A stretch of DNA of 64,000 bases from Porphyra umbilicalis (lineage: Eukaryota; Rhodophyta; Bangiophyceae; Bangiales; Bangiaceae), in contig KV918967.1 of the NCBI GenBank assembly GCA_002049455.2, forward strand, positions 62,001 through 126,000. The letters run 5' to 3'. Positions 932-58,872 of this stretch are shown in pieces. The position numbers and the translations under genes are program-made. The notes below the pieces were generated by a model that did no database searches, was not told the DNA's origin, and saw nothing but the letters and a program-made list of their open reading frames with translations. Numbering within the stretch: position 1 is the first letter of the stretch; the number at the start of each line of letters is the position of its first letter.

Positions 932-1940
932 CTCGTGCGAGCCTAAATCGGCCAATTAGGCGACGCGTGGCACCTTACTTCATTTCAAAGCTCTTTCTAA
1001 TGTCGGAAAACGTTTTGCTGTCTGCCGACGGACAACGGCGAGCTCTACGTAGACGAGTCAAGCTGCCTCATCCAGGTGCCGCAGACACAGCTTGTCAGCC
1101 CCTCCAGACGGCCACACCCGCACGTTTCGGCGGCTGGGGTACCGTCGCGACCAACCCGACATCCCCACCTGTCCACAAATTGTTTGTTGTGTGAACGGCA
1201 TCTAAGAAGGAGGTTGCTGGCGGAAGGTGCTGGCATGGCACAGTGTGCCTGTGCGCTGCAACATGAGGCTGCACCGCTGTCCTGTGCATCACGCCGAGTG
1301 GCGTCATCGACCCGGGGTTTAGGTCTGCCGCCGTTCATGACACGATGCCTGTGCCGGGAGGGGTGCGGTGGCCGGGACAGCGGCGGCGGCGGCGACGGCG
1401 CGGGGGCGGCGATGACGGCGCGGTGGCGGCGGCGATGGCGCGGGGGCAGCGGCGACGGCGCAGGGGCGACGGTGACGGAGCGGCGACGGCGGCGACGATG
1501 TTAAGGCGGCGGCGAAGACGTGCGGACGTTGGCGACGATTTGCGGGCGGCGGCAATGACGTGCGGGCGTCGGCGACGACGTCCCGGCGGCGAAGACGACG
1601 CCGGGGGGGCGACGAAGACGCAGGGGGGGCGGCGCGGCGTTGGCTGCCGCTGCCGCCCCTACCGTCACTACCGTTTGCGCCATTATGGGCATCGCGATGG
1701 TACGCCACCACCCCGGCGGCAGCCTCGGCGGCGGGGCTTTGACAGGCAGCCTCTTTCCAGGAGGCCGTCGCCTGATATTCCGTCAATTCCTCTGCGCACG
1801 CGACGGAGGCGCGTGCCGGCCGGCCGCCGCTCCGCGTCAATAGTGAGTGACAGAGCGCGGACGGGGAAGGCCGCGATTATCACCCGCACGTCGCCGCGAT
1901 GCTGCGGCGGGCGCAGCGAGCGCGCGGGTGCGGGTCAGCC

Positions 1941-1962
1941 CTACGGGCCCAGAACCTCGATA
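1941..1962 (+). repeat. 22-bp repeat, left member of an inverted pair
   Basis: CTACGGGCCCAGAACCTCGA(TA) recurs in inverse orientation at 8899-8920, 7 kb away. Past the 22 bases both copies lead into a related stretch resembling CGAGGTTTTCTG. The pair could be the ends of one element enclosing the unknown ORF at 3641-5956 and the dead transposase, or two copies of a dispersed repeat. I see no clear target-site duplication. Confidence 0.6.
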
Positions 1963-5956: not shown

Positions 5957-6117
5957 TCGGCCGATGGGGGGAGGCCGGGACGCAGGCAAACGGTACACAC
6001 GTGGCAGGTTGCGGCGCACAAAGAGCAGCCTCGTCGGTTGTCGGGTGGGGGAAGACGTACTGGAATCGTGGGGTCAGGACTCACTGTCAGTCGGCGAGCA
6101 CCGGCCACGACACAGAC

Positions 6118-6161
6118 CATCGAGGGACCATCGAGGGACCATCGAGGGACCATCGAGGGAC
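6118..6161. repeat. 11-bp tandem repeat, four copies
   Basis: CATCGAGGGAC is repeated four times without change. It starts about 160 bp upstream of the likely start of the unknown minus-strand gene (5956), so it may lie in its promoter. Confidence 0.85.
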
Positions 6162-6904
6162 AATTGTTGCCCCCCGTGCCGGTGGGGGGGGCGGGGGGGC
6201 GCCCCGCCGCCGCCGCGGCGGCGGCGGCCTCGCCCGCGTCGGGCTCCGACGCGGCGGCTGCCGGGGGGGGGGGGGGTTCCTTGAGTTTGGGGTGCAAACG
6301 ATCGTGCCGTCCGAGGCGGCACTCATTGGCCGCCCCGTTGCGCGGCGGGAGAGAAGGATCTCACAAGCAGTTTGTCCGCGAGATCCGCATGGGGATTGTC
6401 ACTGTCGAGTGACTTGCTCTTCTCTATTTTTCTCTGCCTGGACGTGTGCGTGTAAACTTCCGTCCCCATCCAAAACTCATGACCCCACCGGGCGAAATCA
6501 ACAGATGAGTGGGACTGTCGACTGTCGATTCGCGGAAGCCTCGGGCGAGACAACCAAAAACCGGTCGCCGCCCATTGATGACAGATGACAAGCCTCAACC
6601 CGGACGCGCATTTGTCGCCAGATGTATCGCTGTCTCGCCTTTCTTCTGCTGTGGGATTGACCGACCCCGACTTCACGCCATACGGAACAAACCGTCCACT
6701 CCGCGGCTCGCCCCTGTGTGCCAGCGCACACCTTCCTCCTCAATGTCCGTCGCCCGCCTCCCAGCGCCGTCGCCCTCGCCTGCCCCTCCCCCCCCCTCCC
6801 CCCCCCCCCCCCCCCTCTCCCATTGTCCAAGTGGCAATGAGTTTCGCGGCAAGTCTTCCCTCCGCACAGCGGACGGTAGCCGTCGGCCGGCGCCGCGGTC
6901 GTGC

Positions 6905-6908
6905 GCCG

Positions 6909-6949
<41 letters not shown>
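6905..6949. repeat. (CCG)n microsatellite
   Basis: About 15 almost pure CCG units with one CCA interruption near the left end. Confidence 0.85.
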
Positions 6950-6950
<1 letters not shown>

Positions 6951-7176
6951 TCACGAGGCGGTCGGTGACACCGCGCGCGGCGCGCGGCGGGCGGCGGCGG
7001 GCGGCAACAAGGTCGACGCCGCGGTGGCGGTGGCGGTCGGGCGGCCGGCGGGCCGCGCCAAGGCGGGCGTGTCGGCGGCCCCGGCCGCCGCCACGTGGGG
7101 TGGGGGGGAAGGGAGGTCGCTGTGGGGGCTCTTCGTGGCTTTCAGTCGGGCATTGGCGTGTGATGCTAGACCCGCT

Positions 7177-8199
7177 TTACTCTGGGACGTAAGTCTGATA
7201 GCGACCGACGGCGGCTTTCACGAAGCCGGCGCACATGTCGGGTGTGATGTGCAGAAGCATGGATGTCAGTGTTGCGAATGGCCACGCAGTGGCTTGCTCA
7301 GAGGTCACATGACACCGTAACCAGCTACTGCCCACCGAAAACACGTCCTCCACAGGGTTAAAGTCCGGGCTGTATGGGGGGAGGAAGCGAACCATGACCC
7401 CCGCCGCCTCCGCCACCGCCACCGCGATGTGGTCGTGCACGCGCGCATTATCCAGGATCAACACGCAGTTAGGCTCTTGCTGGTCCCGTGGTAGCATGGG
7501 GTTGTAAGCACTCATCGCCGGCAGCACCGAGTTGATCAAAAAGAGCAAAAAATCAACGGATGGCTGTCCGGGGGGAGGCTTTGTCACCTTCCAGTCGATC
7601 AGCCCGCCGTGCGCCATCGCCACGATAAAGCTGGTTGCCACGCCCTTAGAGGCGTCGACATAGCTTTCTGCGCGGGCGCCACGCTGTGACCACATCCACT
7701 TGCGGTGGGCGGCCCGTCCGCGGCGGTGCGCCTCGTCAATATAGACGCGGTAATGTAGTGGAATGACCCACTGGGCGGCCACTCACGCCGCCCGCGCCGC
7801 CTCACTCCGCTGCCGGAAGTTGGTCTCGATGACCTTGCGGGTGGAGCCGTTGGCGGCGAGAACGCGCCGTACCGTCTCAGGGGAGACCCGCACGACCTCC
7901 TCCATCAGGTTCTGCACCTTATTGACAAAGACGGTCGCCTCGTCTAAGAGGGCCTCTGGGTAGGCCTCGACCGCCGCACAGACAGCGCCGCGGATGCCGT
8001 CGTGTCACCGCATGTTGTCCTCGTGCACACCGCGCGTTTGCATGTTGGGGTGGATGTTCGCGTGCACGCGCTGGTATAATAAAAAGTGCTCAGCAGATCT
8101 CAGAGAGATGCGTAGCTCAGCGGCCACAACAGCGACGGGCTTGTGGAGCTCGAGCACTTGGTGGATAACCGCCCGCCGAATGTCGTCGGGGATAGTCAT
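7177..8199 (-). pseudogene. Tc1/mariner-IS630-type transposase, two stops
   Basis: Read from the ATG at 8199, the frame is 341 codons, the usual size of a Tc1/IS630 transposase. The N-terminus has a helix-turn-helix-like segment (VAAELRISLRSAEHFLLYQR). The C-terminal half holds the catalytic DDE core: YIDEAHRRG for the first Asp, LILDNARVHDH for the second, and LPPYSPDFNPVE for the final Glu about 33 residues later. Two in-frame TGA stops (8005-8007 and 7783-7785) break it into three collinear pieces in one frame. Both are one C-to-T step from CGA (Arg). No intron with good splice sites explains the stops. I found no clear terminal repeats close by, so the element ends are unresolved. Confidence 0.88.
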
Positions 8200-9963
8200 T
8201 TTTGGGGCGCGACGGGAAGGGGGAGGCGAGGCCGAAGGCAGCAAGTCGAAGGCTAACGTGCCAGAAAGCAGCTGGCACGTCCTGGTGTGTGCCAGCAGTC
8301 TCTGGCACGTCTGAAGAAATATGAGGACATCTGCGGATCTCCTCGGTTGGGCGAAGGATTCGCCGCGATCGGCAGGCTTTTCCGGAAAGGGCTTGTTGCA
8401 AGGCGACAAAATCTCGAGAAATCTCCCGATGGATGCAAAGCGCTCCAGGAGAAGGCCGAGACGGCCGCTACAGAGGCGACAACCAACGACTAAACGGCAT
8501 AGGGCACCGATTTCAATACCGAACCTTGCAAGATACCAATTAACGAAGAAGTTACTGTAAGGTCGAGATCATGTCGTCTCCTCTCCATTTTCGTCAAAAT
8601 TTCAACTCTAAACGAAAGTTTAGCAGCCTCCAAACACCCAGCCGCACTCTGCAACCACACTGCAACCGCCAATTTTTTGAGGTCAGCAATACGTTTCTGC
8701 TATTCTTCTGCTGGCTATCCTCGTGAGTGGCAGTGAGAACCAGTGAACGTATTCTATGTGGAACGACACGGGCCATCGATGCGGCTGATCCCTCGGCTCA
8801 AGAGCGATTGTGAGTCATCCACAGTCCAATACATCGAGGTTTTATCGAGGTTTTTGCACGCCCAGCCTTGGTGGGACCCAGGCTCCAGAAAACCTCGATA
8901 TCGAGGTTCTGGGCCCGTAGAGCAGCGAGGCGGTGGGGCGGGGGCCCTTCAGCTGCGCGCGGGTGTGTGCGGCGGCATCTGACGGCAGGGGAAAGAGGGG
9001 GATAGGAGGGGTCATACGACTTGTGGCGAATGCACCAGCGGTAAAAGATCCGCGTGTGGCGGGGTACACGGTGCAGGGGGATGGCGCGGGCGCATTAAAG
9101 ACTGCAGGCGGGGCCCAAGCAGGGGGCGGGAGAGGCGTGACGCGGGATGGACGGGGCAGGAAGTAGGGGACGGGGGGGAGAGGACGAGACTCTTCGCTGC
9201 ACTTGGTGCTTTATATAGTGTATATAACTGCGATTAAAAAGGCACGTGTGGTCACGACTGTTGCCACCTCGGGCAAGACAGTGGTCGCCAAGGAGGAAGA
9301 GACAAATACGGCAGAGCGGTATACTGACCCACACGTAAAACACGCACTGCTGGTGGCAGCTACAGACTCTGGATAGACATGAAACACGTGAAACAGCGCA
9401 GCTGACTCTGGCAGTCCTACTTTGCAGAGCATGCAGAGCCCGACGTAGGACTCGAAGGAGAAGCGGTCACGACGAAGTCAAGCTGAGGACTTCGGCTGCG
9501 ACGACATCGTCCCTCCATCAGGCGCACGAGAACAGCCCAGCGCCGCTTCGAAAAAGAACCCATCGCCATAGCTTTTTCACGGAGGCCCGCTCGATGCTGC
9601 TGCGGCTTTCTGAAGGACGCTGACTAACGATTCAGCACCACACAAGCAACAGGCACATGCTTGCTCGGCGCGCCCAGATGGCGAGTGCCTCCTTCTTGGT
9701 GGCAGCTCAGTCACCAACACGGTCGAGCTGGCGGGAACGGGCTGAGTGCCCTCGGGAAGCACTCACATCGGCATTGGCCTGCTTCGCGTCACGACATTTG
9801 CGGCTAGAACGGGCGCCTCATCCGCGAAATGAACCACATTGCCACATACGTGTCAGTACTACATCATTTTTGACGCATTTTGGGGGACAAATGAAGGCAT
9901 GTTTCACGACTTGCAACTTGCGGGCTGCCGTGATCAGCTCTCTGTCGTTGCCAATGCGCAGCG
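8200..9963. other. Intergenic DNA, no supported gene
   Basis: DNA of lower GC than the flanking genes. It holds the right member of the 22-bp inverted pair and related CGAGGTTTT repeats at 8835-8895. A short AT-rich patch lies near 9210-9235. No protein family is recognised. Confidence 0.55.
8899..8920 (-). repeat. 22-bp repeat, right member of an inverted pair
   Basis: Exact inverse of 1941-1962. Here the repeat forms part of an 18-bp perfect palindrome, AACCTCGATATCGAGGTT. A direct relative (CATCGAGGTTTTATCGAGG) lies about 50 bp to the left. Confidence 0.6.
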
Positions 9964-20506: not shown

Positions 20507-22532
20507 GGCGCACCGCGCGACAAGGACAACAGGGCGAGGGGGTAAAAAAAAAAAAAAAGGCAACAAAGAGATGGTGAGCACAGCGCCAAGGGCGGGGACG
20601 CAGGGACGAGGGACCGAACGGGGGCAGGGCCGTCCGCTGCAATAGCGGCGCGGAGGGGGGAACGGCGGCGGCGGCGGCGGCCGGGCCTCGGCGGCATTGC
20701 CGACGCCGTGCGCCGCCGCAGCTCGCGGTGTCTGATCACGTGATCCGGTGGTGTACACCACCGTTTTATAATTAAAAGTGGCCCCACTGTGCCTTGATCT
20801 GAAATATGGGGGGATTCTGGGCTCATGCCTATATCCGTTTCGTGTGAAAACAGAGTTGGGTACATCTGCCACATATTGGCCAAAATCGCAGGTTGGGTAT
20901 AAATACCCAAAAAATGAAATACTACGAGCCACTACGTGTCCGTCGAGCGTGGCTCTGTGTGGCTTCCCCACGTGGCCATCATGTTGCCTTGATTCGTGCC
21001 ACGGGAATAGAGGCGAATAATCACATCGATGCAGAATCATCCTGCATCGATGTGATTATTCATCGTTATGATCACGCAGGAACAAAGATTCTGCGATCGG
21101 TGGGAAAACTGTATCCGTCTGCCGTCGTGGGCAGCTCTCAGCGCTGTGCCTGAGAGCAGTGTCAGCAGCCTGATTCTGATCTCCACCAATCAAGCTCCAT
21201 GTCTGGACGTCGTCCCCCCTCAATGCTCCTCGGCGCAACAAAAAGAAAACCCATCGGCCGGTTTGCCACTCTGGGCGACTCCGCGTCAGCAACCCCTTTC
21301 AGCGGCCGGCGAGGGCTTTTTGGCAGTGTGCACCGGCGCGAGGCCCGCCGCCTCGGGTTGGCTGGAAGCGACGTGTGCTTTCGGCTCCCGCGGCGACGTG
21401 GCGCCACGAAGCTCCCGCCGTCGCGGCGGTGGCCCCGCTGTGGACGGCCGTCGCGGTGTCCGGCGCGAACCGGATACAGTACCGGCCTGGCAAAGACCCA
21501 GAGTCCGTCACCTCTGCGCCACACCTCATGGGGAAAAAACCCTCCTTTTGGCGAGTGGCCCAATGGGAGGGTGGGAGAACAAAGAGCCCGGCGCGGCGCG
21601 GGCCCCCCCCCCGCCTCAGCCGGTGGCCTGACCAGCGGGGCCGCGGCAGCCGCTGCGCCGCGGTGGCCGCGCCGCGTTGCCGCCGCAGCAGCGCGGGCCG
21701 CGCGCCGCGGCGCCCCTCGGGGGGCTGCGTGGGACCCCCCCGCGCGGGGGGGTCCGAGGCCCGCACCGTGTACGAGCCACAGCCCGCCCGCCCGTCATCC
21801 GCCGCGTCTGCTCATCGGGCTCTCGGGGAGGTTCTCGGTTGCCCCCGACCACCGCGCGCCGCGCCCCCCCGCCGCCCGCGTGCGCTATCGGCGGGTCTGA
21901 CAGCTGCTCTTGTCGCCCCCACCCCCCTGACGGCGGGCGTCGCCGCCGCCGGTCCGTGCATGCCCAGCGATCTCACGCGCGCAGGGGGGGGGGGGGGCGC
22001 CCGGGGGGCGCGTCTGCGCGGCACCGGCCCGCTCCGCCGCGCGCCACTTTGCTGCGCTTCCGGCCGGCGGCGGGCGGTCCCGCCTTTTCTTTTCGCTTTT
22101 TTTTTTCGATTCCCCCGATTTTTTCTCGCACGTGTCGTGCGGCGGGCGTGTGTGCCCGTGCGCCGGTTGTGGCGGTGCGCGCGGCGGGGCGCGGGGGTCG
22201 TCACCACACCACACGCCAGTGGCGGCGTCTGCGGGTGGGACGGTGGCGGTGCACGGCGGTGGTCGGCGCGCGCGCAGTCGGGGGGCGGTGTGGTTGCCCA
22301 TCCTTGGTGGGTGTGGGGCGGGGCGGGCGGGTCACGTCGGGTGCCGGGGTGGCGGTGGGGGGTTGGCGGTCGAGGCAGACGCGGACGGTGGTCGGGGACG
22401 GTCCCGGCGCCACGGGCGGGGCGGAGGCGCGGCCGTGGGGTTGCGGGCGTGCCCGGTCAGGGCGGGTGCGGCGGCAGCGGCGCGGGGGGGGGGAGCGGGG
22501 CTGTCGGCCCCTCGTGTGGGGGGGGCGGCGCC
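20507..22532. other. Intergenic DNA, no supported gene
   Basis: 20720-21300 is an island of moderate GC holding a strong hairpin (21015-21061). From about 21580 to 22530 the DNA is GC-rich low complexity and probably contains the promoter and leader of the kinase gene that follows. Long open frames continue upstream of 22533 without recognisable protein. Confidence 0.55.
21015..21061. repeat. Perfect 20-bp hairpin with 7-nt loop
   Basis: GAATAATCACATCGATGCAG (21015-21034) pairs exactly with 21042-21061; the loop is AATCATC. It is AT-rich in a GC-rich region, so it is unlikely to arise by chance composition. It could be a MITE remnant, a hairpin RNA or a regulatory structure. No gene overlaps it. 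Confidence 0.85.
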
Positions 22533-24338
22533 ATGAACGCGTCGACGCAGGAGGTGGACGCGGCCGCCACTGCCGTCTCCTGTGAGCGCCCCGAGAGCGC
22601 GTCGGCTGAGCGAGTGAATGGGCGTGGGGACGGGGGCGGCGGTGGGGCCGACAACGCGGCGACGGCGATCCCCGCGGCGCCGTCGACGGACGGGGACGCC
22701 GACGGCGGCAAGCCCGCGCCATACGCCCACCAGGTGGGTGGCCATGGGGCCATGGTTAGCCTCGGAGGGCGGCTCCTCAAGCCACTCTCCCGCAAGGAGC
22801 TTGCCTTTTACACCCGCCTGTGGGACGAGGAGCAAACGGGGCCGCCGCTGCATTGGCTGCGCACCTTCACGCCCCGCTTTTTCGGCGTGTACCGCCCGTC
22901 CGCGTCGGCCGGTGCGGATGCCGATGGGGCGGCGGCGCCGGTGGTCGGGTTAACGCCCGAACAGCCCGAGGGTGGCGTCATTGCGGCGCGCATCGCCGCG
23001 CAAGGGGCGATCGAGGCGGCGGTCTCGGACCGTGCCCCGCCCGCGTCTGCGGCGGCGGCCGCGCCAGCGACGGAAGCGGGCGTGTCCCCGCCGTTGGTGG
23101 CGCCGGCCGGTGGGGACGTGGCGCCCACCAGTGGCGCGCCGTCGACCCCCCGTGCGCCCCTGACCTGGGACAGTGATGTGGCGGCCATGGCCTCGTCGGC
23201 CATGGCCTCCTCTGCCGACCCGTCTTTGGCGGCAGGGCAACTCGTGGACGACTCGCCGGCGGCACAGGAGGCGGCGGCGGCGGCCGTTGCGGCGGCACAG
23301 GAGGAGTTGGCGCTTGGGCCCGCCGCGCGCCTCCGCCGCGCGGTGCGCGTGGCGACCATCTCCCCGTGGGCAGAGCGGATGCAGGCGCAGGCGGCGCAGC
23401 GCAAGGCGGCGGCGGCAGCTGCTGCCGCCGAGGCTGCAGAGGCGGCGGCGGCTGCTGCCGTGGCAGCGCCCGCCCCAGGGGGGGAGGGGGACGACGCGTC
23501 GGACGAGATGCCGTCGGTGGGAGGGACGAGCAGCTCGACATCCCCGCGGCTGCCGGCGGGAGCGGCGGGGGAGGCGGCAGGGGAGCCTGCCGCGTCGGCC
23601 GCCGAGGCGCCCGCGCCAGTGGCGTCGGTCGCCGCGGCGGTGGCTGCGGCGGGTGCCGCCCCCGACCCTGCCCCCACCCGTGTGCCTCGCGTGTCCAGCG
23701 ACGTCGACCCGACCGGCTCGCTGGTCATGGAAGATTTGGTCGCCTGCTTTACCTACCCGTGCATCATGGACATCAAGGTCGGCATTCGCCATTATGACGA
23801 CGACGCGTCGCCCGAGAAGCGGGACCGCCACATCCGCAAGGCGGCGGCGACCACGTCGGCGACCGTTGGCATCCGTGTCACCGGCTCCCAGGTGTACAAG
23901 GCCGACCGGGGTACGCTCCTCTTCCGTGACAAGTACCACGGGCGGCGGCTGCGGGAGGCACAGCTTGCGGGTGAGCTCGCCCACTTTTTCCATGACGGAA
24001 CGACGCTGCGGAGCGGCGCGCTAGTCGGAATCATCGCACGCCTCCGGGCGTTGTTGGAGCACGTAGAGGCGCAGCAGACGTTCAACTTTTACTCGTCCTC
24101 CATCCTGCTTATTTATGAGGGCGCCGCGGACGCGGCCGTCGATGGCCGTGGCGCCGATGGCGGCGACGGCAATGGCGGTGCGCCGCCACCTGCCGCCTCG
24201 CACACGGACGTGCGGATGATTGACTTTGCGCACACGCAGGCGAGCCGTGGGACGATCGATGCGGGCTACGCGCTGGGCCTGCGCAACTTGGTCTTCCTGC
24301 TCGAGGCTGTCTATCGGGACAACACGGCGCCCGTCTAG
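22533..24338 (+). CDS. Inositol polyphosphate kinase (IPMK/IP6K family)
   Basis: The protein of 601 residues starts at the ATG at 22533. It phosphorylates soluble inositol phosphates with ATP and makes IP4-IP6 or pyrophosphates; which reaction cannot be told. Family PF03770 landmarks occur in order. QVGGH and LKPLSRKELAFYTRL lie near residues 67-95. The signature PCIMDIKVG (PxxxDxKxG, inositol-binding) is at about 409-417, followed by DASPEKRDRH. SSILLIYEG is at about 521-529 and MIDFAHT, with the metal-binding Asp, near 562-568. Between GVYRP (about 120) and SSDVDP (about 387) lies an insert of about 260 Ala-rich low-complexity residues that splits the N-lobe, far longer than in typical members. 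No intron or frame break is needed. The nuclear or cytosolic location is unknown. Confidence 0.93.
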   Translation: MNASTQEVDAAATAVSCERPESASAERVNGRGDGGGGGADNAATAIPAAPSTDGDADGGKPAPYAHQVGGHGAMVSLGGRLLKPLSRKELAFYTRLWDEEQTGPPLHWLRTFTPRFFGVYRPSASAGADADGAAAPVVGLTPEQPEGGVIAARIAAQGAIEAAVSDRAPPASAAAAAPATEAGVSPPLVAPAGGDVAPTSGAPSTPRAPLTWDSDVAAMASSAMASSADPSLAAGQLVDDSPAAQEAAAAAVAAAQEELALGPAARLRRAVRVATISPWAERMQAQAAQRKAAAAAAAAEAAEAAAAAAVAAPAPGGEGDDASDEMPSVGGTSSSTSPRLPAGAAGEAAGEPAASAAEAPAPVASVAAAVAAAGAAPDPAPTRVPRVSSDVDPTGSLVMEDLVACFTYPCIMDIKVGIRHYDDDASPEKRDRHIRKAAATTSATVGIRVTGSQVYKADRGTLLFRDKYHGRRLREAQLAGELAHFFHDGTTLRSGALVGIIARLRALLEHVEAQQTFNFYSSSILLIYEGAADAAVDGRGADGGDGNGGAPPPAASHTDVRMIDFAHTQASRGTIDAGYALGLRNLVFLLEAVYRDNTAPV

Positions 24339-31211: not shown

Positions 31212-31214
31212 ATT

Positions 31215-31236
31215 AGGGAGTTTTTGCCAGATCGTT
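31215..31236 (+). repeat. Left terminal inverted repeat of Harbinger element 1
   Basis: 22 bp; pairs with 35557-35578 with one mismatch. ATT directly to the left is the target-site duplication. Confidence 0.88.
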
Positions 31237-31336
31237 TTCCATCCCATCTCGATCGGGCGTGGGTAGCACAGCCGGATAGGCGGTCTGTAAGGCGCGGGAA
31301 CAGCTGCCGGATACGCCGCCGATCGAGAAACCGTTC

Positions 31337-31375
31337 CCACGCCGTGGCTATTTCCCAGAAATAGCCACGGGCTGC
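31337..31375. repeat. Hairpin inside Harbinger element 1
   Basis: CCGTGGCTATTTC (31342-31354) pairs exactly with 31358-31370 around CCA, and outer bases extend the stem. It lies in the subterminal region, where transposase-binding sites or fold-back structures are common. Confidence 0.7.
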
Positions 31376-31587
31376 GTGGGATAGATGACAGGTCTCAGCG
31401 GACCTGACCAGCACGAACTCTGCTCCCGCCTTCCAGCTGTTTAGAAGTTGTTGGCACGCTGGCGTATGTGATGGCGGAGCATTGCACAGCTCACAGCGAC
31501 GTACCATTCTCACCAGTGCATCTGACCCTCACTTGTTCTCCCTGCCCGTCTTCGTACGGCTTGCTCCGTTTTGTACTGTGGCCTGCT

Positions 31588-32511
31588 ATGGGCAGTGCCA
31601 ATGCAACTTCCCAGCAGGCAGATGGCATTATGAGCACGCCATCTACCAGCTCCACGCTGGCCGTGGCCGCCCAGAACGGGCCGGGACCAGATGGAAGTGC
31701 GGACCCGCCCGCCGCGGCCAATGCTGGCGCCTCGTCGAACTCCGGCAAGCAGAAGCGGCGCCGATGGGACAAGGACCATGACATTCTGGGAGTCAACGCC
31801 GTCAGCGCCGCGGGCGGCCACGTCGCTTCTCGCGGCACGATCACTGAGCGCTTCGAAGCAGCTGCGGCAATCTTTAACGCGCAACCCCAAGCTCGCTTTA
31901 CGACGGACGGTAAGGCTCTACGTGACCGATTCCTACTACTAAAAAAGAACTTTAAGCTTTCGGACGCGCGAGAAGCCCTTCGGACGGGACATGAGGAGGA
32001 GGTGACCCCGCTCGACAAGGTGCTCGTCGACGTCGTGGAGGCCGCCGATGACCACAAAAGGGTGGAGGAGCAAAAGCAAGGGGAGGCGAGCCGCCGGGAG
32101 GAGCGGCTTGTGGCCACCGGTGAGGCCATTCGGCACGCGGCGATGGAGCGGCGCCGCGATCGCACGGCGCGTGCCCCTCACCGCGACGACGAGCCTGCGG
32201 AGCCAGTTGGTGGGCAAGAAGCGGCGCCGCCGCGTAGCCGGCGACGCAAGCGCCGCGACTCTGACGACGAGGACGTAGTTGGGGAGCTGCAGCGCTTCGA
32301 GGATCGGCGCTCGGCGCTGGCACAAAAGAAATTGGACCTGATGGAGAAGCAGCTGGAGCAGCAGCGCGAGTTCCACGCACAAGAGATGGCCCGTCGGGAT
32401 AGAGAGGAGCAGGAGCGTCAGCGGCGCCAAGAGCGCTTGGACGTGGAGCAGCGCCGTGAGCGCACGGCATTCCTGCATCTGATGGACGAGGTAACGAAGA
32501 GGCTTCACTGA
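31588..32511 (+). CDS. SANT/Myb-like DNA-binding protein of the transposon
   Basis: The frame of 307 residues from the ATG at 31588 (an upstream in-frame ATG at 31468 is less likely) is intact. The N-terminal third has a trihelix/SANT-like fold signature with conserved aromatic and basic residues: RRRWDKDHDILGVNAV, then TERFEAAAAIFNA, then GKALRDRFLLLKKNFKLSD. A basic stretch, RSRRRKRRDSDDED, could be a nuclear localisation signal. A long charged coiled coil follows (RRSALAQKKLDLMEKQLEQQ and onward), giving a means of dimerising. In PIF/Harbinger elements such a protein binds the subterminal DNA and brings the nuclease into the nucleus. Its partner is encoded at 33907-35142. Confidence 0.82.
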   Translation: MGSANATSQQADGIMSTPSTSSTLAVAAQNGPGPDGSADPPAAANAGASSNSGKQKRRRWDKDHDILGVNAVSAAGGHVASRGTITERFEAAAAIFNAQPQARFTTDGKALRDRFLLLKKNFKLSDAREALRTGHEEEVTPLDKVLVDVVEAADDHKRVEEQKQGEASRREERLVATGEAIRHAAMERRRDRTARAPHRDDEPAEPVGGQEAAPPRSRRRKRRDSDDEDVVGELQRFEDRRSALAQKKLDLMEKQLEQQREFHAQEMARRDREEQERQRRQERLDVEQRRERTAFLHLMDEVTKRLH

Positions 32512-32774
32512 GCTGATGTTGGGAGGAGAGACATGAGGAGTAGTAGCGCGGGAGGTGTGATAGCGTGGGGAGGGTGATCGTGTCTAGTGTGTGATAAGTG
32601 GTGTGTTCGTACCCGTGCGGCCCCGCCAAAAACTCGTCATTGCAGCATACGGCCGTCTTCTCAAGAATCTCGCCCACCGGAGGTATGACCAAGATTACAA
32701 AATGTGAGTCGAAAAGACAGAAGCACAAAAACAAGAAACGCTCTACGAATTTCCTCCATATTACCCGTTGTGAG

Positions 32775-33890
32775 GCCCCGCCCCGCCTCCCCCCCGTGTC
32801 ACCCCCCTCTGGAACCCGGGCGGGGGACATGACGCGATACTTTCCGACGACGCGCACCCGCAGCGCCGCGTCGACGGTCAATGCGCCGAGGGCGGGGCGC
32901 CCACCGTCGGCGGAAACGGGCCCGTCGGGCAGCGCCACCACGTAGGCCGCGCACAGGCGCTGGGTGCCCGCCGTCGCGGCGGTCGCGTGCACCCGCCCGA
33001 CGGCGCCGCGGGCAAGGCGCACGTTGGCTTGCAGCGGCAGCACGCCCGTGATTTTGCCGGAGATCACGTCGCCGACCGACACGGACAGCGGGCGGGCGGC
33101 GGCGGCGGCGGCGGCTTTGCCGGGCGCCGCCGCCCCGACGGCGGTCGCCGACGCGGCAGCGGCGGCGGCGGCGACCGCCGACAAGTCGACGCGCACAATG
33201 ACGCGGCCGGCCCCCTCGTCGGCGGCCGCGTCAGGGCTCGGCGACAGCACCGTCGTCGACACGTCCATGCCCACCCGCAGGGGCGTCACCCCGTCGGACG
33301 CGTTGGGCTCCCGCGCGGCCGCAAACGTCACAATGACCGGCCCGCAGTTGGCGGACGCGGGCGGGGGCGCCTTGCGCTTTTTACGCCGCCCGCCGGCGGC
33401 GGCGGCCGCACCGGCGGCGCGCCCCGGCCGGGGAGGGACGTGGTCATGGCCATCACGTGGCCGAAAAAGGTCGCGCGCGACGCCGCGTCGGTGGCGGCGG
33501 CGGCGGCGGACGCGGCCGCCGACCGCGACGCCGCCCGCGCGGCCGCCAACGCGTCAGCGGCTTGCGCGTAAGAGGTGAGGGGCGCCCCCCCCGCCGCGAC
33601 GAGCGACTTTTTCGCGTTGAGGGTGGCGCGCCCGCGCCCCCCCCCCCGCCCCGACTCGACGGCCGAGACGCGGCAGCGCAGCGCCTTGCCGACGGCGAGC
33701 TTTCGGTGCAGCCCGACCGCCTTGACGACCTCGTCCGACACGTGCAGCGGGGGTACGTAGGAGTGCAGCGCGGTCGCGCCGCCGTCGACGGCGACGGTGC
33801 ACGGGCGCCGCCGCCGCCTCAACAGGCACCCCCCCCACAACCGCCCCCGTCCGACTGGCAGAGCCGTCGCCATTGCCGTCACCAAGCAGC
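32775..33890 (-). pseudogene. RRP5 fragment (S1 repeats) inside the transposon
   Basis: Cellular RRP5 is a long nucleolar protein with about twelve S1 RNA-binding repeats that is needed to make both ribosomal subunits. Only a stretch of about three repeats is present. In order these are HSYVPPLHVSDEVVKAVGLH with LAVGKALRCRVSAVE and ATLNAKKSLV; then ATFFGHV and TPLRVGMDVSTTVLS; then SVGDVISGKITGVLPLQ with GRVHATAAT and LRVRVVGKYRV. The N- and C-terminal parts of the gene, including the HAT repeats, are absent. The frame changes once near 33430, equal to one missing base. The block is much richer in GC and homopolymers than the transposon on both sides, which fits capture from a host gene. Boundaries are approximate. 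Confidence 0.72.
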
Positions 33891-33906
33891 CGCGCGTTCG
33901 CAGCGA

Positions 33907-35142
33907 TCAGGCCCCACCGGCCTCGTCTCCGTCCTCCCCCGCGCCACCAGCACCGCTCGGGCCACTCTCTTCCTTACTCGTCGAGCCTGCCGCGGCTCCC
34001 TGCCCACCAAGACCAAGGAGTGAGCCCAAGTAGACCTCCCAGCTGGGCGGTGGACACTTGAAAAAGTCGGCGGTGGCGCTGCCGTATGCACAGCAACGCA
34101 AGTTCCAAATCAACGCGCCGGCGCGATAGAAAAGCCCAACTGGACCCTCCCGAATTTTCAGCTTGCGGGGGAAGTCGAGGGAAGCACAAACTTGTTTGAC
34201 ATCTTTGAAACCCCACTCTACCGCTGAGCGCGGCACCTTCATGGTTTCATTGCATGCTTCCTCGTTCGGCGTCATCACGCCGCGAAAGGAGGCCTGCAGC
34301 CATGGTCGAACGAGGTACGCTGCATCACCGTAAATGTAGTGTTGCACCCCCTGGATCACCAGCGCGTCAGACAGAACAGCGTCCAAACCAGACTCATGAT
34401 ACAAGGTCATGTCATGCCTTCATCCCTCCCATGGGCCAAACAGGTGAGCGATGAGACTGTCAGGAGTAATCACGCTTTGAAACTTGATGGCATGTCTCCT
34501 CTTGTGGCCGCTGTAGCAGGCCCTCTGAAACCCCCTGCCCGGTCTGCTCACAAAGATAGTCGTGCCATCTATAAAGCCAACGCACTTGTCCAGGTAGGCT
34601 CCCGCCTCTTCTATCCTGGTGGAATACAGTGGTGCCCTCTCGCGCAGAAAATCAACACGCCATTCCGAGAGCAGAGGGTCCCACCGGTGCATCCATACCT
34701 CTAGAGTAGCGTAAAAAATAACGCACAACGCAGGTGCATGCCTTCCAAACAGCTCCTCCATGTCATACCATCGGCACGGAGACGCCAACCGCCGCAGCAC
34801 AACACAAAAACACTCAACGGGGTCGACAGCCAAACGACTACGAGGAAACGGCACTACAAGGTGCAACAAGGAAACCAGCTTGACAATGTGGTGAGGTAAA
34901 AATCGGAAGAGAGAAAGGCAATCCTCAGAAGAGAAAGAATCAAGACTAAACGCGGTCTCCTGGATGCGCTCGCGGCGCGCCAGGCACAGAGACACTTCGT
35001 TCTGCGCTCGACGGTAGCTCCGCACCAGACCCATCATGGCGCCCAGAGAAAACCCCATCGCATATCCCATCCGTAAAGCGCGGCCAAGCCCGCGGCGTCG
35101 GGCGCGCCAACGCGTCAGTTGGTTGCAGCGAATGGATACCAT
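33907..35142 (-). pseudogene. PIF/Harbinger DDE nuclease (transposase), one stop
   Basis: The reading frame is 411 residues from the ATG at 35142, typical for Harbinger nucleases (DDE_4, PF13359). Catalytic positions are VGFIDGTTIFVSRPG (first Asp), YIYGDAAYLVRPWL (second Asp) and RSAVEWGFKDVK (Glu). SGHKRRHAIKFQSVI between them is also typical. One TGA at 34420-34422 interrupts the conserved FGPWEG-x-RHDMTLYHESGL; relatives usually have Arg or Ser at this position, so CGA to TGA is the simplest history. The stop at 33907 lies within about 20 bp of the RRP5 segment, so the C-terminal tail may have been altered by that insertion. It is convergent with the SANT-like gene. Confidence 0.88.
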
Positions 35143-35556
35143 GGCATCAGCAAAGGAAAATCCTTACGGGAGCGGAACGAAAAGGATTGCACACACGGAC
35201 GCCCAATGGTGGTTGGCGGGACGCACGCGAAGGCGTTGGGTGAGATGTAGGTGGGGACACACGCGGGGCGACAAGACCGGGCGATTGGCCAAGTCACAAA
35301 GACGGCAACACCAGCGTCTGCAACACGGCGTGCGACCATGTGGGCTGGGCACTGACAGGGAGCGTCGGCCAGACGGTGGCGGCGACGCAGCGGGGTCTTA
35401 TTGCTGGTGGAAGTACCGGCGTCGCATCCCATGCCGTATCGAGAAACAAACCTGCAAAAACTAAAAGACCTACCCACGTGGGAACGGCGATGGCTGTAAG
35501 GACGAGCAGCCTTGGCCGGTTGTCAGCCGGATGAAGGATCCCACGGAGATCCCACG

Positions 35557-35578
35557 AACGATCCGGCAAAAACTCCCT
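35557..35578 (-). repeat. Right terminal inverted repeat of Harbinger element 1
   Basis: 22 bp, partner of 31215-31236; followed directly by the ATT target-site duplication. Confidence 0.88.
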
Positions 35579-36126
35579 ATTGCCGAGAGCCGCACCAGTC
35601 TCTACAACACACTTGTGGTCGGATGAATCCAAATCAAGTTGCCAAGTCCAGAAACGCTTCGCGAACGCGTCTTCAGTTGGGAGATGTTGTATTATTTTCG
35701 AACCAGGACTCGTTTTGGGGACTGCCTGCGGCGCCGGCCGTGGCCGCCACAAACGGCGCTCTTCGAATCGTCGTGCCCTTGCCGTCTCGTCGTCCGCTGA
35801 TCACCCCCTCTCCCACTCCCCCCCTCATTTCCACTCCACCGCCGGCGGCGTCACACGTTCTGTGTTCCCGACGCCGGCTCCGACCCGACCCACCGGCAGG
35901 GTGCACCCGCCACTGTCGACGGCCGTTTCCACGCCCGGACGAGATTCGAGCGACTTCGTCGCCGAACCGTCTGACTGTCGTGCAGGGACGAGTGTCGAGC
36001 GACTTTGTCGCCGACCCGTTCTGTACGTCAGTGGGGACGAGAGTCGAGCGACATTGTCGCCGACCCGGTCCACGGACGACTGGGGACGCGCGTCGAGCGA
36101 ATTTGTCGCCGACCCGTTCCTGCGCC
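35579..36126. promoter_or_regulatory. Upstream region of the oxygenase-like gene
   Basis: This is the DNA between the transposon end and the likely ATG at 36127. Its last 180 bp is the 49-bp tandem array listed separately. No TATA-like motif is obvious. Confidence 0.4.
35947..36125. repeat. 49-bp tandem repeat, about 3.5 copies
   Basis: Cores CGAGCGAC-TTGTCGCCGA begin at 35947, 35996, 36045 and 36094, exactly 49 bp apart; the fourth unit is partial. The period is not a multiple of three, so it is unlikely to be coding. It abuts the start codon of the oxygenase-like gene and could be a regulatory array. Confidence 0.88.
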
Positions 36127-37005
36127 ATGCCTGGGGCCGATGCCGACCCACCAAGGAGGAGGCGATCTCCTCGCGGTGGGCTGTCTGGTGCGGCCCGCAG
36201 GCACAAGAAGCGAAAGAGGGCCTTGGCCAAGGCCGAGTGTGTGGCGGCGGCTCCGAGGCAGGGCGCCCCTGCGGAGGGTGATTCTGGCGCGAAGGCGCCG
36301 GCGGCGGCGCTTCTCTGTACCGCGGGCGACACTGTGTCGGCGCTGGCGACGCGCCAGTCGACACGCCTGTTGGCGGAGGTGGTCTCGGAGGAGACCAACG
36401 ATGACACTGAGTGGACGAGCGAGGAGGAGGTTGAAGGTGGTTTTATGCCTCTGCCGTTGGCGGCCTCTTCCGTCTCGGGGCCCCACTCCCCCGCGCTGGC
36501 GGCCCCCTCCCCGATGCTACCAATCCCCGGACCTACAGCTCCCTCCCTGGCGTCTCCAGGCCACGGACCGACGGCCCCCACCCTGGCGTCGCAAAGGTCC
36601 GCTCCGACAGCGCCCTGCCCGACGTGTCCGAGCACTGCGCCGACGGCGCCCTCCCCGGCGTCACCAAGCCCCGGGCCAACGGCTCCCTCCCCGGCGGCAT
36701 TAAGCCCCGGGCCGACGCCCCTCTCTTCGACTACACCCCCCCCCGTCCCTCAAGGTCCAACTCTTCAAGGTGTGTTGCACAAAATTGTCACTCAGGCGGC
36801 GGCGCTCAAGGCGGACCTTTGCCGCGACGGCCGAGGCTACCATATCCTCCGCGCCGCCGTCAGCGACACGCTGGCAGTGGCTGTGGACAATGACCGCGCC
36901 GCCATTCATGGGGATGACTTCTCTGTCATGATCAACCACGCGAAGGTCGAGACCTTCGAGAGGCACGGTAAGAGCATTCCCACCAATGTCGGGCCAACGG
37001 TGTGA
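36127..37005 (+). pseudogene. 2OG-Fe(II) oxygenase-like protein, 5' part
   Basis: The frame starts MPGADADPPRRRRSPRGG at 36127, has a basic KKRKRALAKAE segment (possible nuclear signal), an acidic patch and a Pro/Ser/Thr-rich repeat region (GPTAPSLASPG-like units, about 36520-36740). It then becomes globular (GVLHKIVTQAAALKADLCRD to VETFERHGK). At 36969-36971 the transposon target duplication TAA begins; beyond it the frame reads into the terminal repeat and stops at 37005. The true continuation is at 41578. Removing the element with one TAA copy gives one open frame of 448 codons plus stop. On its own this part lacks the catalytic motifs. Confidence 0.78.
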
Positions 37006-42079: not shown

Positions 42080-42215
42080 AAGGACAGGCGTTGAAGACTA
42101 GCCCCAGGCTTGAACAGAAAGTGTAGAGCCTTGGCGTCCCGTTCCCACTTGCCTGTGCACCAGGCCGGCGTCCGTCTGTGACAACCCCTGCACCCGCTCA
42201 AGCTGGCCACCTACA

Positions 42216-42686
42216 ATGGGCCATCCTACCAGCCCCGACCCCTCCGTACATACGTCACCTACTATGGGCCGTCCTGATCACGCGGACCGCCGCTTGCGAA
42301 ACCGCGAGTCCCGCGTCCGCTCCTCCGCCCGTGCCGCCTGGATCCGACAACACCCGGGTGAGCGGCTGCCTGTTGAGTTACAACAGCGGCCCCGGGGAGC
42401 ACCACGCAAGCCTGTAGCTTCCGACGAGCAGGCGAAGTCCCGACAAGGGGCACACGTCCGAGCAGCAAGCTCCCACGCGCGCCGCCAAGCCGCATCCAGG
42501 TCGGGCACGAGCGCTGCAGCGGCGGCCGGCAGTGCCGCGGGGGCGGCAATGGATTCCGAGGAGGCGGCGGCCGCCCCCGACGCGGACGCCGCTTGGACGG
42601 CCGAGGCGGCGGCTACGGACGCCACACGGACGGCCGAGGCGGTGGCGGCGGATGCCGCACAGTCGGACGAGGCGACGGCCGCCGAT

Positions 42687-42733
<47 letters not shown>

Positions 42734-44525
42734 TGCAGCGGAGGCGGCGATGGACGCCGAGGAGGCGGCGGCGGCTACCGACGCGGACGCGTATGCGGCG
42801 CTCCTCCATGCCGAGGCGGCGATGGAAGCCGAGGAGGCGGCGGCGGCCGCCGACGCGGACGCCTCACGGACGTCTGATGCGGCGGCTGTGGCGGCCGCGG
42901 CCGCTGCGGCCGCCGCCGCTGACGTCGAGGTGGCGGAGGCGGCGGAGGCGGCGATGGACGCCGAGGAGGCGGCGGCGGCTACCAATGAGCACACCGCTCG
43001 AACGGCGGACGCGGTGGTGGCGGCCGCCGCCGCCGACTCAGCGGAGGTGGAGACGGACTCCGAAGAGGCGGCGGCGGCTGCCGACGCGGACGCATATGCG
43101 TCTCTCCTACAGGCTGCTGACGCGGACGCTGCAGAGGCGGCCAAGGCGGGCGACTCGTCCGAAAACGACTCAGGCGGCGCGGGTGGCATATGCGACTACT
43201 CGTCCAGCGACGACTTGTCGGGCGAGGCGGGCGAAGCAGGCGACCACGCCTCGGACAGTGAGTATGGTGAAGACGATACCGAGGTGATTATTGACGTCAT
43301 GGCCGAGGAGGAGGTCGCCAAGGTCTGCCTCTTCGACGACTACCAGAGGCGTTGTGAGGATATCAATGACAAGTACGCCGCAGAGGAACCGACCGAGACG
43401 ATCCCGTGCTCGGACATCCCTGGCGAGATGCTTCCCGTCGGCGTTCTCCCACCACTTGCGTCCGACGGCTTCTGGCTTTCTACGTCTGTGCGCAGGAGGA
43501 ACGCCGTGGGTGATGTTTACTTTGACGTGCGTGGCGAGGACGAAGCTGCCAACATGAACAAGAAAAAGCGCCGACCGAGAGGTACATCGAAGGGCCGTGG
43601 CACCATCTCCTTCCCCCGCGCCATCTACACGCGTGTCCACGGCGCGCCAGGACCACTGATGCAAGTGGACCATAAGGACAATTGCCCACAAAACAACCAC
43701 TGGAAGAACCTGCAGCAGCTGACGGCGTTACAGAACAAGAGGAAGGCGAGCAAGGCACAAGTCGGTCACGTCTCCGCCAGCGTCAAGGTCAGCACCGACC
43801 GGGGCGCGACGTGGATCAAGCTCTCCAACCCCGCCGCACTGGTGGCGCGCTACGGCGTCAACCGGAACGATGTCATTCGCGCCTGTGAGTCGGACGGCCG
43901 GCTTGGTGACCTGTGTGTCAAGTACGACCTTTGGGGGGACCTCGACGGCGAGGTGTGGAGCGAGCTGAAGCTGGACGGCAAGCCGATGGCGATTGAGATC
44001 TCCAACGAGGGCCGCCATCGGGACCTTGTCGGCAATGGCGGCGACGCCGGTCCCCCGCATGCCCCAAACTCGGCGACAGTGCTCCCCATTGGCGACCACT
44101 GCTGTCGCCTCTTTGACGTGATTCTGGAGATGTACGGCGCTGATGCGCGCCCCGAGGGCGCACACGCGCAGCAAATCGACGGACCTTCCTGCGCCGTCAA
44201 CAACCTTTTTTGGTCATTGACCTCGTCGCGGTCGACGTTGTTTCTGGTACGGACGGCCTTCGAGGTGCGTCGCGCCGAAACGGTGACGCGGTGGCTGCGC
44301 TTCCCCAGTGCCAACAAGTTGGCCTCGCTGCTCCGTTGTGCTGCGAAGAACATTAAGGTTTCTTCAAAGGTCCACACCGTCAACGACTGGGAGTACCGCC
44401 GTTGCCAACCCAGGTGTTTGGCCAGCGAAAGGTGGTTCGTTTTATCGCCCCAACTTCGCGAATCATGCAAGGGCTGCTTGATTCCTCGCCGCACGTCAAG
44501 ACCGGAGGGGGTTGTGTCTAGGTGA
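42216..44525 (+). CDS. HNH/NUMOD homing-type endonuclease-like protein
   Basis: The intact frame of 769 residues starts at the ATG at 42216. Residues 1-95 are basic. About 95-340 is an Ala-rich repeat of the type AAMDAEEAAAATDADA, and 320-380 is acidic. The HNH nuclease motif is at about 482-505: LMQVDHKDNCPQNNHWKNLQ then ALQNKRK. It is followed by a NUMOD1-like helix-turn-helix (WIKLSNPAALVARYGVNRND) and a NUMOD4-like segment at about 578-605 (GEVWSELKL, then IEISNEGRHRDL). A second, degenerate HNH (QQIDGPSCAVNNLFWSLTSS, Gln in place of His) follows. This modular layout is known from phage and giant-virus homing nucleases. The last codons and the stop overlap the start of the acyl-CoA oxidase fragment, so the C-terminus may be a junction product. 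DNA target unknown. Confidence 0.78.
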
Positions 44526-54860: not shown

Positions 54861-55386
54861 GGGAGTCGCGCAGAGCCCCCGCCGCGCCCCCCCCGCCGCC
54901 GCACGCCGGCCCGCGGGCGCGCGCTCGGGGGCGCCCCCGCTATGGCCGTTGCTGCCAGTGCCTGGGCGCGGGGGGGTGGGGGGGGGGGGACGGTCGCCCC
55001 ACCCCGGCGGCGGCGGCGGCGCGTGGCGCCCCGCGTCTGCCGCGCGCACGGCGGGGGGCTCGTTGTTGTGGCGGGGGCGCGGGTGGCCACGCGCGACGGC
55101 GGGCGGGTGCGGGGTCGGCGGTCGCGGACCCGAGGGCACTCTGGCGGCAGCGGCAGCCCGGTGGGCGCTTGCACGTGCGGCCGTTGTGGGCACTGCGCGG
55201 GTGTGGCAACGGGGCGGGTACCCCGCCCGCTCCCGTGTCGTGGTCGACCGCGGGGCAGGGCGGGCCGTCATCCTGGTCGGGTTGGCATGCCCGCTGTGGT
55301 GGTCTACCAATGAAGCGGCTCGCTGGCAGTGTCAAGTGGGCCGCGCGTGTGTGCACTCCCATAGGCCCCGCCCTGCCCCTCCCACG
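54824..55386. other. Intergenic DNA between convergent genes
   Basis: Begins with a run of 30 G at 54830-54859. The rest is GC-rich and empty of recognisable genes. Confidence 0.6.
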
Positions 55387-58300
55387 CTACCGAAAGTGCC
55401 AAAACAGCGACGCGAGCAAGCCCATCTGCGTCGACACGGCCACGTCCACCGCCAGCGTGCGGGCGGTGCCGCCCTTGGCGTCCCCTGCCGACCCGTCACC
55501 GCCAATGCCGTCAAACGCCGGCGCCGGCGGCACGCCGCCGGCGGCGGTCCGCCCCCCCTCGTCCGCCGGCGGCGACGCGGACCCAACCTCCCACGCCCCC
55601 GCGTCGTGGTCGTCGGCGCCGCGCCCGCCCACCGCCGCCGCGTCGACCGTGTCGGCGGCCACGTACGCGCCGCCCGCCGCCTGCCGTCGGCGGGCCGCGT
55701 CGACGGCGCTGCCGCCGGCGGCCGCGTCGGCGCCGCCGAGCCCCCCCGCCACCGCCGCCAACTGCGCGGGCGTCGGCCCCGCACTGCAGCGGGAGACGCC
55801 AATGAGCACCGCCGTCGAGGCGGCGGTCGACACGGCCGCAAAGTGCAAAAAGTTGGAGTGGAGGAGCGCCCGCCCGAGGGCGCCCCCAGGGGGGGCCCGA
55901 AACGGCAGCGCCGCCGCGGGGTACAATGCGGACGCCGTGAAGCGGACGACGCCGAGGGCAAAGCCGACGGCGAGCGACGCGAGCGCGCCCGTGGTCGTCG
56001 CGGGGGGGTACCCAATGGCCGCCACGTAGACGACGGCGATGGGGGGCGCCAAGTAGGAAATGACGCTTTGGATGTACACCTGTGGGGGACCGAGGCGGCG
56101 GCGGGGGGGGGAGAGAAACAGCGGGTGCACATGGTGGATAACGAATGCAAGATGAGCAAGTCGTGAGTGCGGCTGAGACGAGCATCAGCAACAGTCGGCA
56201 GCAACGCAGAGCATGTACCTGGGGTGCGGCACCCTGGAACCAGTGAAAAAACGAAGCGGCCCCGCAACGCCACTGCCAAAGACACCTCGTGACGGAGGCG
56301 GTGCGCCTGTCGCCCGCAATCCCCGCCCGCAAAACGTACGTAGAGCTGGTCTGACACGCCCTCAATGACCGGAATCCACAAGACGCCGACGACCATCAGC
56401 GCGACCGTCACGACGCGCCCGACGAGCACGAGGCGCGCCTCGCCCGCGGCCCCCCCTTCCCCACGCCCCCCACCACCACCCGCCCACACCCCGTACAAGT
56501 CGTACGCAACGACCGTGGCCGTCGAATGGAACGTCGACGCGAGGCTGCTCATCAATGCCGACACCATCGCCGCCACCATCACCCCGAGCAGGCCGTGCGG
56601 CAGCAGCGCGGCGGCCATGGCCGGGTACGACTCGTTTGGTGCGGCGGCCACAATGTCGGGGAGGTGGAGGCGGGCTGCAGTGGGGGAATGTGGAAAAGAA
56701 AAGAGCCGATACACCGCATTCCAAGTGAAGCAGCAGCGAGCGTGAGCAAAAGAGACCATATGAGGTGGACGCCAACAGCGCCCTGACGATTTGACCGGAG
56801 CACCTTCGCGTCACGCCACCAACACACATCCGTGTCGATAGCTCCCCCTTGATTGCACGTACCTGCCATGCCGGGGACGACCATGAGAAAGGGGATGGAG
56901 AGTTTCGCGGCACCACAAGCGGCGCAACCGCCCCTCGCGTGGGAAAGCGCGTAAGGGGAGCGGGCAGAGAGGACGCGCTGGACGACCATCTGGTCTGTAA
57001 CAAGTCAATGGCAAGGAGCAAGCCGACCAAACGGGCAGAGGCGCGACGGCAGAGTCCCGACAATGTGAGCAACCACGAACCAAGACGTGCGGGCGTCGCC
57101 AAGAGAGGCCGGCAAGGCACAAACACACGGCGGTCACCCCACCAACCGGGCAGACACGTCGCCAAGGGACGGCCCACAGCTGGGCGCAAAGCAGCCACAC
57201 AAACGTACCCGTGCACCAGTACCAAACTTGCATGGCTGCGGTGGGGGAACGCGCGGCCAAAACAGCGACAGACCATGCAAGCAGAGGGAAGCGGCAGCGC
57301 GCGTCAGCAAGCGACACAAAATGGGCGCTAGACGCGGACCGCCCAACCCCCGCCCGCATCACGCTGTCGACCGACAGGCCGCCACGCCGCCCGCCCGCCC
57401 ATTGCACGTACCGGGCAGCCCGAGCAGCACCCCCGTCCACGGAAAGTCGACCCACCCGACGTGCCCCCCCGGGGGTTGGAAGACGTGGAGCATGCCCCCC
57501 CGCCCCGAGTCGACAAGCCCCGTCACGAGCCCCGACCACCCCCCCACCGCCCGGAGCGACAGGCCGAGCAGCGGCACCGAGCCGATGAGCAACACCCCCG
57601 CCTGCAGCTGCTCGGTGAGGATCACCGCGTCGAGGCCGCCGACGATGGTGTAGACGGCGGTGAGGGTGACGAGGGCGGTCAGGGAGACGGTCGCAGAGAT
57701 GCCGAGGAGGACGCGCAGGATGACTGGGGGGGGGGGGGAGCGGGGGGGAAGGTGCTCGGGGAGCCGAGGGGGGGGGAGAGCGGCACGGGCAGACGGGGGG
57801 CCCCACAGCGTGCGTCAGCCACCGCTCCAACCAGACGAGCGCCCCCCTGCGGCGTGCGCCAACACGCCGAGCCCGCCGACGGCGGCCATGGCAAGCCCGA
57901 CCGCCCGGCGCCGCGCGTCCGTGGCGCCGAGCAGGCCACCGCATCACCCTCCCCCCCCCCACACACACCCCCCCCCCCCCCCCCCCCCATGCGCGCAGCC
58001 GCGGCGGGGCAGCCGCCCCCAACGCACTCGCGCCCGAGTAGAGGATGACACAAATTTTGGTGAGCACCGCCGCCACAATCGTCACGGCGGCCATGAGGAC
58101 GCGCACGCGGCGGTCAAAGCGGGCCTCCATCACCTCGGGGATGGTCGCGACGCGCATGCGCAGGAAGACGGGCGTGAAGGTGTAGCCGAGGACGACGGCG
58201 ACGAAAAAGGCGGCCATCCACTCAAACGACGCGACGGCCATCCCCGACGTGGCGCCCGCCGACGCGAGGCCGATAAAGTGTTCGGAGCCTGGCGCGGCGG

Positions 58301-58872
58301 CGGCACGCGGGGCGACGCACGCAGGGGGGGGGGGGGGGGGGGGGAGGCGGCGTCCACAGCAAAACAAGAGGAATGAAAAAAAAAAAAGGGGCGTGAGCGA
58401 CGGGGACGGTCGAGCGGGGGCGGCTGCCCAGGAGTGGGGCGCGCGCCCACACACACCCTCTCCACCCCTACGGCGCGGCCTCTGCGACGCGCCACCCCCC
58501 CCCCCCCCCCCTCTGCCAACGCACCAATGTTGGACATGAAGAGCGACGCGCCAATGCCAAACCACCCCGTATTGCGGCCGGCGAGAAAGTACCCCTCAGA
58601 GGCGGCCACCCCCCCACGGGGGGGGTCCCCCCCCCCCCACGGCAACGGCGGCTGCTCCCCACCGTCCGCGTCGGGCGGCGCCACCGGGCGGGCGCCCCGC
58701 GCGCCCCCCCCCCCGCACCGGCGGCGGCGGTGGCGGCGGTGGCGGCGGCGGCGGCGTAGCGCGCCTGCTTGCGCGACGCCACCACCGAGATGCCGAGGAG
58801 CACCACAAAGTAGGCGGCAATGACGGCAGCGTCGACGCCATTGAGCGCCGCCGCCGTGGCGAGCGTCGGCGT

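Follow-up and report, generated by a model that had tools for sequence, protein, structure and literature searches.

Canonical PIF/Harbinger transposons carry a second open reading frame (ORF) with a Myb/SANT domain, and their insertion leaves a TWA duplication of the target site. Here we describe a relative of these elements in the red alga Porphyra umbilicalis, located at positions 31215-35578 of a 64,000-nucleotide stretch of contig KV918967.1 (assembly GCA_002049455.2, positions 62,001 to 126,000; henceforth the window), which holds a piece of the host gene RRP5 in the spacer between its two genes. Within the PHIS superfamily it may be compared with Pangu, which is described as having an ANT duplication, terminal inverted repeats (TIRs) of 11-40 bp usually starting with AG or GG, and two ORFs, one for a DDE transposase without other domains and one without known motif, its autonomous candidates averaging ~3.5 kb (Han et al. 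2015, PMC4482050). In the parts of that paper used here a Myb/SANT second ORF is stated for NuwaI, and elsewhere Pangu is equated with Repbase Harbinger2 (PMC12730594).

Host-gene capture by TIR elements is known in kind, Harbinger-PIF elements included. Pack-TYPE elements, some of them Harbinger-PIF, are non-autonomous and hold host-gene fragments within their TIRs; in the survey concerned, a transposase match is enough for an element to be filed as autonomous (PMC8903248). The window element likewise has a host-gene fragment between its TIRs but, unlike Pack-TYPE elements, retains a transposase gene in three of three copies (the window and contigs C45 and C84), open over 418 codons in C84. 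Two described systems combine host-derived sequence with an element's own genes. The Kaonashi (KIU) Mutator-like elements (MULEs) carry an Ulp1 domain that is described, in the relevant part of a review, as strongly conserved in eudicots (PMC13317346), whereas no constraint was seen on the RRP5 piece. The TET+ PHISTA relatives of Harbinger in rust fungi, PHIS-superfamily transposons with a host-type gene beside their own, are reported to encode a dioxygenase and to have TA duplications (PMC12730594), as against a gene fragment and an ANT duplication here. An earlier sequence-only reading of the window had considered capture to be less often seen in Harbinger elements that keep both genes; it is still the less usual part of the case, though with these precedents. 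No title among the open literature listed dealt with RRP5 capture or with capture in a Pangu element, in searches of which none was aimed at RRP5 and which are no proof of absence, and among the listed literature on Porphyra or Pyropia no title concerned this element.

It seems very probable, from the evidence presented below, that a Pangu-group two-gene transposon acquired the middle part of host RRP5, as a DNA copy, in its spacer and then spread as a loaded element, the piece being a passenger.

A piece of host RRP5 between the transposon genes

The spacer is far richer in GC than the genes around it, as had been noticed from the letters alone (0.75-0.81 vs 0.52-0.71 in 300-base windows; 0.70 for the whole 64-kb window). 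Within it, 955 bp on the minus strand (32844-33798) match the S1-repeat region of an RRP5 gene on a separate contig, C281, at 87% identity in one alignment of 693 columns and 90% in another of 317 (10-13% difference). The proposed capture of a host RRP5 piece is thereby borne out at the DNA level, in a segment smaller than the ~1.1 kb first suggested; taken alone, the piece gave a weak S1_RRP5 match under the cut-off (Pfam, E 0.015). It is collinear with the donor and internally deleted, corresponding to positions 5547-6142, 7947-~8040 and ~8147-8461 of donor locus L011, with ~1.8 kb absent between 6142 and 7947 and ~0.1 kb absent near 8040-8147. The junctions fall in short GC-rich repeats. 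On either side lies GC-rich junction sequence for which no source was found (32775-32843, common to three copies, and 33799-33906), with no RRP5 alignment beyond short low-complexity matches. RNA-mediated capture, from a processed mRNA, was rejected: judged by eye, none of the three gaps against the donor coincides with a canonical intron, and they remove coding sequence.

The donor lies on the minus strand of C281 in a stop-to-stop frame of 1464 amino acids, which matched six distinct PDB sequences at E<=1e-5, all six named RRP5/Rrp5 (best 9.5e-42). Pfam gave S1 (1.9e-05) and HAT-type models under the cut-off (best 5.9e-05), and upstream of the frame there are further S1-like frames with matches under the cut-off. 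We searched the genome itself with the capture block (83.8 Mb in 665 contigs; 40 of 177 candidates scored, so that counts are lower bounds), and no second full RRP5 gene was among the DNA matches listed, which tests the matter only in part. A family search of the genome with S1_RRP5 returned 12 matches, none over the cut-off, with two on C281 and the best-scoring on C86, C342 and C351. At two G runs of L011 (~8256 and ~8310) the RRP5 gene is one base short and its frame is broken, and the window and C84 copies have the base; the missing bases could be either homopolymer assembly errors or real changes.

Three copies of the loaded element

The capture block had at least 125 matches in the genome. 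The long ones are the window itself (C207), C45 (97% identity), C84 (95%) and the pieces on C281; after these comes a match of 170 bp (72%) on C19, and most others fall on the same two stretches of GC repeats in the query. The fragment has the identical internal position in all three copies, and both transposon halves were located beside it in C45 and C84, so the capture preceded their spread. The window and C45 share an absence of 607 bases (at 33798/33799) relative to C84, which retains more donor-collinear RRP5, so the capture also predates the divergence of the copies. These extra bases continue RRP5 to donor position 8799 (82% identity over 186 columns) and then run into ~345 bp without a donor found (L010 4170-4513). 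For this last stretch a DNA search gave 29 matches, of which the best outside the three copies was 51 bases long (66 bits) and simple-repeat-like, a protein search gave a single other match (58 residues, E 0.0085), and comparison with neighbouring stretches of C281 gave weak matches only. The C84 capture additionally lacks ~70 bp of the donor near 8545-8614.

Two relatives with the same ends, on C88 (L028/L029) and C244 (L030, G000:C244:16500-25000, 1046-7077), have no middle and contain a large insert at a shared internal site, with insert ends that by eye are similar and of CGCAGTG type. The C244 insert encodes a DDE_1 transposase (E 5.9e-25) together with a frame whose Tc5-type DNA-binding match stays under the cut-off, and is a transposon riding within another transposon.

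Ends, genes and classification

The element is 4.36 kb long and is bounded by TIRs of 22 bp (31215-31236, plus strand; 35557-35578, minus strand), starting AGGGAG and with one mismatch between the ends by eye. ATT flanks it on both sides (31212-31214 and 35579-35581), in agreement with the matched repeats and duplication claimed at the outset. The identical left end occurs in the C45, C84 and C244 copies. Wherever both ends could be read (four of four elements) the duplication has the form ANT, namely ATT in the window, ACT in C84, ATT in C88 and AAT in C244; in C45 the right end has gone into simple repeats and only the left is readable.

Gene 2 (33907-35163, minus strand) encodes a DDE transposase. 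In the window it is a single frame split by one stop codon at 34420-34422, with DDE_Tnp_4 recognized on both halves (Pfam, E 4.3e-06 and 0.0009), and on the open gene of C84 the same model reaches E 1.4e-18. C45 has a stop too, at a different place. Alignment with three relatives at 64-65% identity, in which the positions of the DDE triad were assigned from the family pattern, showed the second D and the E kept in four of four sequences and the first D in three, with E in the other. Gene 1 (31588-32511, plus strand) has a stop-to-stop frame beginning at 31408 and would give, from the ATG at 31588, a probable accessory protein of 307 amino acids; in C84 it is open as a 328-amino-acid frame containing this ATG. 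Both genes are thus open in C84 and both are present in the window, as the sequence-only reading had it, but the stop in gene 2 means that the window copy does not fully keep them.

That reading had also called the two genes SANT-like and DDE, and the second name is the one that stands. The gene 1 product of the window had no Pfam match at E<=1, and its inner part matched no Myb/SANT model even at E<=10. The weak Myb_DNA-bind_3 match (E 0.18) of a relative on C85 is at most suggestive of a SANT-like protein. Neither transposon protein had an NCBIfam match, and a profile search of PDB with the transposase gave nothing at E<=0.1. With self-matches and fragments counted in, 71 matches to gene 1 and 81 to gene 2 were listed in the genome. 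A scan for bacterial promoters and terminators, ill-suited to this genome, found no promoter-like and two terminator-like sites against 1.0 expected.

With its ANT duplications, a 22-bp TIR beginning with AG, and two ORFs of which one is a DDE transposase without other domains and the other lacks a known motif, the element resembles Pangu; it is longer than the Pangu average and, unlike the description of that group as far as the source covers it, has captured host DNA in its spacer. The TWA duplication of canonical PIF/Harbinger is seen neither in the window element nor in the others whose ends were read. Judged by duplication, ends and ORFs, the element therefore appears to belong with the Pangu (Harbinger2) group of PHIS rather than with canonical Harbinger, and the label of Harbinger first given to it can be retained in the former sense only.

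Entry of the fragment

The origin of the piece in host DNA and its presence in three copies are established. For its entry we infer error-prone repair synthesis as the most likely route, namely gap repair with template switching, by which RRP5 DNA was copied into the spacer that separates the two convergent genes. Stretches from within the copied piece would have been lost or skipped at short GC-rich repeats, and the element would afterwards have transposed with the piece inside, to be found now three times in the assembly, presumably mobilized by the transposase of this or a related copy. It is also quite possible, although we would put it at somewhat less than an even chance, that the piece came in as filler DNA during ordinary host break repair and not during transposition, and was moved later. 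The junctions do resemble repeat-mediated repair and there is source-less sequence at both borders, but nothing separates such an origin from transposition-linked gap repair, the outcome being the same and the difference lying in the entry step alone.

Divergence of the captured piece

Pairs of copies share 95.4-96.8% identity in the capture and 97.8-98.5% in the two transposon genes. Copy-specific changes affect 56 of the capture's 951 sites, against 24 of 921 for gene 1 and 38 of 1257 for gene 2. Of the 56 changes in the capture 20 are at CpG, as are 6 of the 24 in gene 1 and 10 of the 38 in gene 2; the faster change of the capture may thus be due in part to base composition. In capture segment 1 the 36 copy-specific changes are distributed over codon positions 1, 2 and 3 as 14/14/8, and the fixed differences between copies and donor as 23/11/21, with no excess at third positions; the codon positions of segment 2 were not used because the donor frame shifts there at homopolymer runs. 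Segment 1 of C84 moreover has a 1-bp deletion. Given this deletion and the lack of a third-position excess, the RRP5 piece is most likely a non-functional passenger, drifting without visible constraint at the protein level. Since much of the S1 region is missing from it, as is the C-terminal HAT part, a working Rrp5 would not be expected from it. For the transposon genes, the ratio of nonsynonymous to synonymous polymorphism (pN/pS) over three pairs is 0.43-0.48 (gene 1) and 0.41-0.95 (gene 2), a weak sign of constraint drawn from few changes.

The piece might still matter as RNA. Its location between convergent genes would allow read-through of both to produce double-stranded RNA across it and so to tune host RRP5, and 104 of its 936 21-mers are exact to the donor, the longest exact match being 42 bases. 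We consider this very unlikely, as the other 832 are not exact and no constraint was seen.

Relatives and the contents of their spacers

Four RRP5 frames were compared by tblastn, with low complexity masked, with eight element loci. RRP5 was detected in two of them, the near-identical sister copies L009 and L010, and in none of the six loci of more distant relatives (L031-L036). The earlier reading had named as an alternative that the S1 segment is normal to this family. That it is a regular and functional component of the transposon has in its favour the presence of the segment in three of three near-identical copies; with none of the six relatives' loci containing RRP5, 87-90% DNA identity to the host gene, no third-position excess and the deletion in C84, we find it very improbable. 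The other alternative then named, a full RRP5 gene running through this locus, is contradicted by the location of that gene on C281. An RRP5 gene or pseudogene invaded by transposon parts can be all but dismissed: it has the S1 match and nothing more for it, while transposon genes bound the piece on both sides, joined to it in three places, and a long RRP5 gene is on the other contig.

The spacers of other subfamilies hold other sequences. C51, C475, C116, C29 and C221 have a common GC-rich spacer with a tandem repeat of 15-bp period, and C85, C359 and C405 a common spacer with a ~200-bp tandem repeat. In the common spacer of C72, C286, C24 and C50, 135 bp (L035 5844-5978) match C191:147609-147743, a GC-rich coding-like stretch, at 79%; the match scores 113 bits, vs 55 bits for the next outside the subfamily and 40-44 bits for three other genome stretches. 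The frame beside the matched part (L061 2-409, next to 410-544) had no Pfam match. This may be a second, older host-gene capture, but it is a lead only, the C191 stretch being a putative gene at most. An unfiltered tblastn with a C191-derived frame returned low-complexity noise and was not used. One could go further and see the family spacer as a recurrent cargo bay, with inserts differing by subfamily (RRP5, the C191-like 135 bp, tandem repeats) and double-stranded RNA from the cargo touching essential host genes; this we regard as a long shot.

Several observations weigh against the capture of RRP5 by a Pangu-group transposon as proposed here. The relatives tested do not count as six independent cases, since the spacers of C51 and C475 are 100% and that of C116 97% identical, and one relative, L036 (C33), has no gene 1 among the matches listed nearby. 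The search for other copies yielded two more with the fragment and, within this subfamily, none without it, the TIR-sharing relatives C88 and C244 being without the whole middle. As for the ends, the left flank of C45, whose right end is lost, is CTT and not ANT, and C88 has an imperfect right end. The gene model on C281 is in part uncertain because the donor frame is interrupted at runs of C or G, and the codon-position count comprises 36 changes, with ~30 junction columns and one alanine-repeat stretch poorly aligned. Lastly, the mechanism of capture was not seen directly, and alignment of the block to the genome, which delivered the full RRP5 gene and the limits of the RRP5-derived part, left source-less sequence on both sides, so that these limits need not be the original borders of the capture.

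Other features of the window

Next to the element, 35676-37002 has frames on both strands rich in short proline/alanine/threonine repeats, the plus frame without a Pfam match. A long frame at 21180-24335 (plus strand) matches Pfam IPK, inositol polyphosphate kinase (E 9e-48), and is an ordinary host gene; another at 42114-44522 (plus strand) has an HNH_3 endonuclease match (E 4.5e-06). Two adjoining frames at 55338-58595 (minus strand) correspond to different parts of the sodium:solute symporter family and probably belong to a single gene that an intron or a frameshift divides.

Implications

The locus is an instance of host-gene capture, matched to its donor, in a Pangu-type element with both genes open in one copy, C84, which means that an element can capture host DNA without being stripped down. 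Captures of this kind would be missed by surveys in which all transposase-bearing elements are filed as autonomous. The variable spacers of related subfamilies, in turn, make repeated pick-up of DNA at one place in the element a testable proposition.

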